From a bacterium (GTDB lineage: Bacteria > Armatimonadota > Zipacnadia > Zipacnadales > Zipacnadaceae): DNA of 64,000 nt. The stretch is taken from assembly GCA_030603495.1 (NCBI GenBank), contig JAUVXR010000002.1, positions 1-64,000 of the forward strand, written 5' to 3'. The notes beneath the pieces are model-generated. The model saw nothing but the letters and a program-made list of their open reading frames with translations, searched no databases and was not told the origin of the DNA. Of this stretch, positions 12,996 through 26,035 are shown in pieces (the stretch's first letter is position 1; each line of letters begins with the position of its first letter). Both the position numbers and the translations under genes were made by a program.

Positions 12996-13226
12996 ATGTT
13001 CAAGATTGTCATAGACCAGCAGCGCTGCAAGTCATGCGGCCTGTGCATTGAATTCTGCCCCAAGAGCGTTATCGAGACGAATCCCGAGCTTAACGAGGCC
13101 GGCTTTCACGCCGCCCGTATCGTCTCTCAGGACGACTGCACCGGCTGCGGGAGCTGCGCGCTAATGTGTCCCGAAGCTTGCATCGAGATCTACCGGGTCG
13201 AGGTGGAGGCGCCGGCGAATGCCTGA
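12996..13226 (+). CDS. korD: 2-oxoacid:ferredoxin oxidoreductase, ferredoxin (delta) subunit
   Basis: The 76-residue protein is a two-cluster ferredoxin. The motif CKSCGLCIEFCPKSV supplies the first [4Fe-4S] set and CTGCGSCALMCPEACI the second. It is the delta subunit that passes electrons from the catalytic subunits to soluble ferredoxin. It overlaps korA by 8 nt, giving translational coupling. Confidence 0.92.
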   Translation: MFKIVIDQQRCKSCGLCIEFCPKSVIETNPELNEAGFHAARIVSQDDCTGCGSCALMCPEACIEIYRVEVEAPANA

Positions 13227-15095: not shown

Positions 15096-15123
15096 GCAGA
15101 TAGAACCACCTATCGGCATTCAT

Positions 15124-15195
15124 TGTGGGAGGGGCACCCTTGCCCCGACTTGTGACGAATGTCGGTGTCGTCGCGGCAAGGGTGCCGCTCCCACA
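15124..15195. repeat. REP-like palindromic hairpin between korB and korC
   Basis: Two 21-nt arms, beginning TGTGGGAG at 15124 and ending CTCCCACA at 15195, are inverted copies with one mismatch (TGTGGGAG-G/C-GGCACCCTTGCC). A smaller CCGAC/GTCGG inverted pair is inside. It forms a stable 72-nt hairpin in the operon mRNA between two subunit genes, which could protect upstream mRNA or reduce read-through. It could also be a REP-type mobile repeat. Only one copy was seen. Confidence 0.75.
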
Positions 15196-15224
15196 GAATC
15201 GGGCGGCGATAGAAGGCGATATTG

Positions 15225-15782
15225 ATGCGACAGGAAGTATTCATGGCGGGAATCGGGGGACAGGGAGTCCAGTTGGCTGGCCAGATTCTGGCTGAGGCAG
15301 CTCTGGAGGCCGGCTTGGAGCTGTCTTGGTTTCCCCTGTACAGCCCGGAGGTGCGCGGCGGTCCGACAACCTGCACGCTGGTTATCGCCGACGGTCCAGT
15401 TGGCAGCCCGGTAGTTGGTGGGGATGCTGACATGATCCTGATGGACCGCGCTGCGGTGGCAATGCACTTGCCCGGCCTGCGGCCCGGCGGGCTGGTGGTG
15501 ATCAATTCGTCCCTTGCTGGCACTGACTTCGAGCGCGATGACGTGAAGATTGTGGCTGTCCCCGCCAACGAAATCGCCGCTGAGTTGGGCAGTGAGCGGG
15601 CGGTCAATATGATCCTACTTGGCGCATTCGTCGGCGCTACCGGCGTGGTGGCCCGCCGATTCATTGAGCGGGCACTCCACAAGGTGCTCCCCGAGCGCTA
15701 TCACGAATATATTCCGTTGAATATGGCGGCGCTGCAGCGTGGTGCCGAACTTGTAGCAGAGCAACCCTTGCGAGGTGATTAG
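15225..15782 (+). CDS. korC: 2-oxoacid:ferredoxin oxidoreductase, gamma subunit
   Basis: KorC (185 aa) is the gamma subunit, a Rossmann-like domain contributing to CoA binding and complex assembly. FMAGIGGQGVQLAGQILAEAA is the family's glycine-rich opening, followed by SPEVRGGPTTCTLVIAD. The ATG at 15225 is 8 nt after AGAAGG; TTG at 15222 is an alternative. It completes the korDABC set, so a whole ferredoxin-dependent 2-oxoacid oxidoreductase is encoded. Its last codons overlap the ribosome-binding site of the next gene. Confidence 0.92.
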   Translation: MRQEVFMAGIGGQGVQLAGQILAEAALEAGLELSWFPLYSPEVRGGPTTCTLVIADGPVGSPVVGGDADMILMDRAAVAMHLPGLRPGGLVVINSSLAGTDFERDDVKIVAVPANEIAAELGSERAVNMILLGAFVGATGVVARRFIERALHKVLPERYHEYIPLNMAALQRGAELVAEQPLRGD

Positions 15783-15784
15783 CC

Positions 15785-16420
15785 ATTCTTAGTGGATTAA
15801 CAGAAATATGCCACCGAATCCGGGAGTCTTTTCAGCAGCAGGACGAGGCCCGCGAAGGGGCCTATAATCTCTCCCGCCGCGTCGTCCGCACAGCCTCGAG
15901 CTGTATCCGCAGTGTCCATCGCCAGGAAAAGGAGGAGACGCAGCGACTCTTGGCGGAGACGCGTGAGATCACTGCCCGGATGATCCAGGCGGTGGCAGAC
16001 CACCCCCGCCTGCGCCACGGCGGGTTCGTCGCCGATGCCGAAAAAGAATACGCGGAGGCGGCTATCACTTGCGCGGTCATAGCTGGTGACCCTCTACCCA
16101 CCCCCGAAGAACTCCAGATCGACTACGCGCCCTGGCTTAATGGCTTGGCCGAGGCCGGCGGTGAGTTCCGCCGTCACCTTCTCGACCTGATTCGCGAAGA
16201 CCGTGCGGAAGAGGCGGAGGATTATCTCGATGCGATGGACGAGATCTACCGCGTAGTCATGGGTTTCGATTATCCCAATGCTATCAGCTACGGCCTGCGG
16301 GGACGCTCTGATGCCCTGCGGGGCATGGTCGAGCGCACCCGGGGCGACCTGACCAATGCCCTGCGCCAGAGCCGCGTGGAGAAGCGCCTGGTGGAGTTCG
16401 AACGGAAGCTACCCCGGTAA
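15785..16420 (+). CDS. Translin-family protein (apparent ATT start)
   Basis: The 211-residue product is entirely helical and resembles archaeal and bacterial translins. Features are an N-terminal RIRESFQQQDEAREGAY helix, LSRRVVRTASSCIRSVHR, a central AEKEYAEAAITCAVIAG-like helix with PTPEELQ after it, GEFRRHLLDLIREDRAEEA, and the conserved end with FDYP followed by GLRGRSDALRGMVERTRGD. Translin/TRAX proteins bind single-stranded nucleic acid; in eukaryotes they form octamers and C3PO RNase. No ATG, GTG or TTG lies in frame between the korC stop and the TTG at 15950. The ATT at 15785 has GAGGTG 7 nt upstream, and homology extends to it. It starts 2 nt after korC. Role unknown. Confidence 0.72.
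   Translation: MLSGLTEICHRIRESFQQQDEAREGAYNLSRRVVRTASSCIRSVHRQEKEETQRLLAETREITARMIQAVADHPRLRHGGFVADAEKEYAEAAITCAVIAGDPLPTPEELQIDYAPWLNGLAEAGGEFRRHLLDLIREDRAEEAEDYLDAMDEIYRVVMGFDYPNAISYGLRGRSDALRGMVERTRGDLTNALRQSRVEKRLVEFERKLPR

Positions 16421-19771: not shown

Positions 19772-19775
<4 letters not shown>
19134..19775 (-). CDS. CBM9/DOMON-like beta-sandwich protein
   Basis: The 213-residue protein has no signal peptide. It is mostly beta-strands with WNGSGLYVAAQVPK, GDGMQLWIDAQPDD and VGFNYLIHD, resembling the CBM9-like (DOMON) sugar-binding domain common in environmental bacteria. The role is unknown. Its ATG overlaps the uvrA stop (ATGATGG), so it is translated as part of the uvrA unit. Confidence 0.6.

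Positions 19776-26035
<6,260 letters not shown>

Follow-up and report, generated by a model that had tools for sequence, protein, structure and literature searches.

An apparent AUU start codon, conserved in kind across Candidatus Zipacnadia, for an archaeal-type translin/TRAX gene whose expression is likely weak and linked to IF3

The stretch of bacterial DNA analysed here (the window; 64,000 nucleotides) carries a gene whose product is a full-length archaeal-type translin/TRAX (C3PO) protein, and comparison with related sequences makes it near certain that translation begins at the AUU codon at 15785. The reading that we favour, at a probability of roughly 0.6, is that this AUU-started gene is discriminated against by IF3 and yields little protein. 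Weak, IF3-linked expression is likely by analogy with better-studied genes, from which low output, IF3 dependence and any physiological reason for them would be carried over, and the start-codon-dependent control envisaged in an earlier note on this DNA is plausible. The positions that the note had reported, an ATT at 15785 lying 7 nt after GAGGTG (15772-15777), with codon 56 as the first in-frame ATG, GTG or TTG, are all correct, and the frame comprises 211 codons plus a stop (Table 1). The gene lies downstream of a kor cluster, with the korC stop 3 nt before the ATT, and korC-translin synteny is kept in most loci of the order Ca. Zipacnadia. Below, G000 denotes the genome that carries the window, and L-numbers denote homologue loci. 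Two further features of the window may be recorded here: a GC-rich inverted repeat (TGTGGGAGGGGCACCCTTGCC ... GGCAAGGGTGCCGCTCCCACA, 15120-15197) between korB and korC, and a 2087-residue open reading frame on the minus strand (19772-26035) that looks like a tandem UvrA fusion with a C-terminal extension.

Table 1. Features of the translin locus and its neighbours, in window coordinates.
Feature	Position	Strand	Remarks
Translin/TRAX (C3PO) family CDS, archaeal-type	15785..16420	+	211 aa, apparent ATT start, stop 16418-16420
Apparent AUU start codon	15785..15787	+	homologous position is ATT/ATA/CTG/ATG in relatives
Extended Shine-Dalgarno element, GAGGTGAT	15772..15779	+	overlaps korC 3' end
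In-frame TGA	15776..15778	+	closes translin frame, 9 nt before ATT
First in-frame canonical codon, TTG, codon 56	15950..15952	+	rejected as start
korC, 2-oxoacid:ferredoxin oxidoreductase gamma subunit, PF01558	15222..15782	+	upstream neighbour; TAG stop 15780-15782
korB, TPP_enzyme_C, PF02775	14319..15095	+	5' end approximate
korA, POR_N, PF01855	13219..14271	+	
korD, 4Fe-4S ferredoxin subunit	12996..13226	+	

The earlier note had placed the protein in the translin family, to be checked against the Pfam model PF01997. The window protein itself does not match PF01997 even at E=1, an outcome of the kind that the note had listed as refuting, whereas 36 of its 48 orthologues do (best E 1.4e-6). 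The assignment itself stands on profile and fold: a family profile built from the alignment of 48 homologues matched AfTRAX (3zc1) at E=2.7e-40, Nanoarchaeum NEQ131 at E=1.3e-16 and human TRAX at E=8.6e-8, and the AlphaFold model of the window protein (mean pLDDT 95.9; helix 1 beginning at residue 5) has the C3PO fold. Foldseek searches with this model returned AfC3PO/NeC3PO first, followed by human, fly, mouse and fungal translin/TRAX, the top 50 hits being C3PO, translin or TRAX without exception. Residues E88 and E91 are invariant in the 48 sequences, the position of E123 is E or D in the rows shown, and the three align with E83, E86 and D117 of AfTRAX (chain numbering); in 3zc0, Ala replaces D117. 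We infer that the protein is a C3PO ribonuclease subunit with RNase activity. Among NCBIfam models it falls with those of PRK14562, below trusted cut-offs; that entry is named 'haloacid dehalogenase superfamily protein', apparently in error. The gene was found in 58 of 61 related genomes; named relatives that carry it are Candidatus Zipacnadia, WS1 or Armatimonadota assemblies, and remoter translin homologues occur in Chloroflexota, Actinomycetota and Methanosarcinales.

Support for the AUU start, which the earlier note had proposed and for which it had looked to the upstream codons of relatives, comes from alignment across the order. At the homologous position, 13 genomes have ATT, seven ATA, one CTG and most others ATG; in most order members, GAGGTG, GGAGG or a comparable element lies 6-7 nt ahead of this codon. 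Eleven genomes (loci L001, L003, L004, L005, L006, L008, L012, L014, L015, L016 and L039) contain no ATG, GTG or TTG from the upstream in-frame stop to at least codon +15. Of the readable homologues from outside the order, nearly every one offers a canonical start no more than a few codons away. A few starts are open to other readings: L010, one of the ATT/ATA loci, is ambiguous, with a rival TTG at -6, and L009 and L020-L024 have an in-frame GTG inside the GAGGTG element itself, an unlikely start because it would lack a Shine-Dalgarno (SD) sequence of its own. A translin homologue on the reverse strand of L038, around base 1239, has an apparent CTG start after GGAGGTGATTGCG. Codon choice points the same way as position. 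ATC, which accounts for 142 of 243 isoleucine codons (58%) in seven window genes, is found at none of the 20 ATT/ATA starts, and this argues against an ordinary isoleucine codon there, the sequences being non-independent. Across codons 2-56, pS (0.25-0.86) is well above pN (0.02-0.24) in each of eight pairs, so that this segment is evidently coding and under purifying selection. Sister species carry ATG at the position homologous to the ATT, and as several of them do so the weak start is not indispensable; on the protein tree, which was built by a quick method and has several weak branches, the state changes between canonical and non-canonical at least six times, from which it follows that the weak codon persists or recurs.

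These comparisons also bear on the simpler ways of doing without an AUU start. A standard gene finder would accept TTG 15950 as its first permissible codon, leaving the upstream part untranslated, and the earlier note had allowed for a start near this point. Beginning there would discard helix 1 and the invariant residues R23, R31, I41 and H45 from a segment that is under purifying selection, and the first downstream canonical codon is not constant among relatives (codon offset 4 to 55); we rejected this codon, and consider a start there or at another downstream codon barely credible. Loss of a genuine ATG through sequencing or assembly error, also raised in the earlier note, might be suspected, given that the genome is a multi-contig draft and that its named relatives were assembled from metagenomes. 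Conservation of a non-canonical start removes this objection, as ATT or ATA occupies the same position in about 20 genomes and the readable copies from named genomes stem from several separate projects, which leaves error with a negligible probability. Finally, the korC and translin frames overlap by a few bases in the window, as might be expected if ribosomal frameshifting joined the two products and dispensed with a start codon. Frameshifting is, however, very improbable: in-frame stops leave a shift window of one codon that contains no slippery heptamer, the korC and translin matches lie anywhere between 5 and 148 nt apart in relatives, and no korC lies upstream of translin in L012 (ATT) or L023 (ATA).

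If AUU 15785 is the start, its SD element is exceptional. Against a generic 16S tail (GATCACCTCCTTA), the duplex energy of GAGGTGAT is -14.1 kcal/mol, a value reached by none of the 110 shared ATG starts sampled from G000 (median -8.1, strongest -13.9 kcal/mol), and compares with -11.2 kcal/mol for infC and -8.5 kcal/mol for ftsW/rodA, two further genes with non-canonical starts that are considered below. IF3 discriminates against AUU, AUC and AUA (PMC4611024), and weak third-position pairs are disfavoured by IF3 in vitro (PMC10158994). We propose that the 30S subunit would be held at the AUU by the unusually long SD duplex, while the mismatched third position of the AUU:CAU pairing would weaken the site and expose it to discrimination by IF3; because of this weakness, little RNase would be made and its output would track IF3 activity. 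A discriminated start rescued by an extended SD may thus keep the RNase scarce and tied to IF3. Re-initiation after korC may contribute, given that korC ends so close to the AUU in the window, although the variable distance of korC among relatives indicates that such coupling is not essential. Re-initiation in E. coli is lowered by excess IF3, and less so with an SD present (PMC2268962).

Self-repression offers a different account of the weak codon. Translin/C3PO proteins bind single-stranded nucleic acid, and the earlier note had thought an autoregulated RNA-binding protein conceivable. Bound at the start of its message, translin might repress its own synthesis, and an AUU would make such repression effective. 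The fold around the start is weak (-9.5 kcal/mol over 61 nt), which speaks against this account, and we regard it as improbable.

The translin AUU is not an isolated oddity, since infC and ftsW/rodA use AUA, AUU or AUC in the same lineage. A scan for AUU, AUA and AUC (AUH) starts, which compared 773 kb of the 2.67 Mb G000 genome with 1.44 Mb from relatives and yielded 263 homologous ORF pairs, gave clear cases only in infC (ATA), translin (ATT) and ftsW/rodA. Control codon classes at equal stringency produced a similar number of background matches; these were dispersed, and most of them were internal or lay next to an ATG. The automatic scan therefore has little power by itself; the three calls rest on multi-species reading and not on scan counts. 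The infC gene (G000:C24:118145-118645) starts with ATA, and almost throughout the order its counterparts (L131-L160) begin with ATA or ATC, at the codon through which IF3 classically controls its own synthesis. The ftsW/rodA gene, which lies outside the window (L281, G000:C7:108018-109304; PF01098, E=1.6e-64), shares with its relatives (L283-L310) an ATA, ATT or ATC at the same position across the order, and in five of these loci (L287, L290, L303, L309 and L310) a stop closes the frame just upstream, with no canonical codon close by. Two other candidates were set aside. For a uvrD/pcrA-like gene, an AUU start was dropped in favour of an aligned TTG (G000) or CTG (G006) two triplets earlier with better SD spacing, and a recJ-like gene (G000:C24 13814-15605) has an ordinary, shared ATG. 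The uvrD/pcrA-like gene itself (G000:C24:5300-7687, minus strand) begins with TTG, and its counterpart near 174519 of G006:C12 apparently with CTG. As regards an altered initiator tRNA, the sampled stretches contained no tRNA-Met or tRNA-Ile genes.

The same lineage carries an unusual IF3. The motif FRGPELRH was present in all 31 order sequences read. The corresponding residues are FRGREMAH in E. coli, FRGREVAH in Thermus and FKGRAITH in Geobacillus, so that the order-wide change places Pro at the position of E. coli R133 in the C-terminal domain (encoded at G000:C24:118502-118525). Of the 41 order genomes, 39 carry a match to a degenerate DNA pattern for FRGPELRH at the infC locus, and the remaining two are those without an infC match; the pattern occurs in none of 210 other Armatimonadota; G043 and G044, from a family (f9) of another order in the same class, have FRGREMAH within IF3. 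The E. coli IF3 fidelity mutant R131P, a neighbouring change, is mentioned as background and does not enter the argument. The range of the substitution coincides with that of translin AUH starts. Altered at a position that E. coli, Thermus and Geobacillus keep unchanged, this IF3 may discriminate less, so that AUU may not be weak in its own host. Initiation in the lineage might then be relaxed, AUU, AUA and AUC serving as ordinary starts and the translin AUU being near-neutral and devoid of regulatory meaning. The confinement of the IF3 change to the order, the conserved ATA/ATT/ATC starts of ftsW/rodA, and the repeated gain and loss of AUH starts on the translin tree would all suit such a view. 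AUH codons are nevertheless far from exchanging freely with AUG, to judge from three clear genes in 263 pairs; the strength of the translin SD stands out, as though it made up for a weak codon; and the IF3 change and AUH starts meet at a single node, amounting to one evolutionary event, and any causal link between them is conjectural. We judge relaxed initiation the less likely account, though one deserving of attention, and retain the reading of a weak, IF3-discriminated translin start; initiation may nonetheless be relaxed or remodelled across the lineage.

More broadly, Zipacnadia may combine a remodelled IF3 with AUU, AUA and AUC as a functional class of start codons that includes infC, the translin RNase, ftsW/rodA and others yet to be found, such that start stringency would be a trait of the lineage as well as an axis of regulation, and standard gene finders would mis-start these genes. 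We advance this proposal tentatively, and rate it somewhat below even odds. Were the link to IF3 true, the lineage would amount to a natural experiment in the control of start-codon stringency by IF3. In lineages of this kind, callers restricted to ATG, GTG and TTG truncate real genes at the N-terminus.

To our knowledge, very few conserved AUU or AUA starts are known outside infC. The present case concerns a putative RNase gene from a bacterial class without cultured members. Across a whole order its AUU/AUA start has been retained or regained, and the gene is accompanied by a second one other than infC, ftsW/rodA, and by a lineage-unique IF3 substitution. With AfC3PO/AfTRAX of Archaeoglobus fulgidus (3zc0/3zc1), the window protein shares an all-helical fold (sequence identity of approximately 28% across 186 residues; TM-score, scaled to query length, of 0.75-0.80) and the acidic residues, and differs in being bacterial, in belonging to a kor operon in most of the order, and in its AUU/AUA start. 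E. coli infC and pcnB, although they encode other proteins, also start at AUU, and pcnB is an enzyme of RNA metabolism kept scarce by its AUU, according to work cited in PMC13009471; for translin, the corresponding IF3 dependence is surmised. The conserved AUH starts of Staphylococcus cvfC1 (AUU), ccpN (AUA) and infC (AUA) similarly adjoin an extended SD and reach about 10% of the output from AUG, with a dependence on the medium in one case (PMC13009471). These belong to other genes and another phylum, and their starts were mapped by Ribo-Ret and their weakness measured. Streptomyces sigR uses GTC rather than an ATH codon, and its repression by IF3 was shown experimentally; like translin, it unites a lineage-conserved non-canonical start with a strong SD (AGGAGGTG), and another non-canonical codon substitutes for it in some species (PMC5472188).
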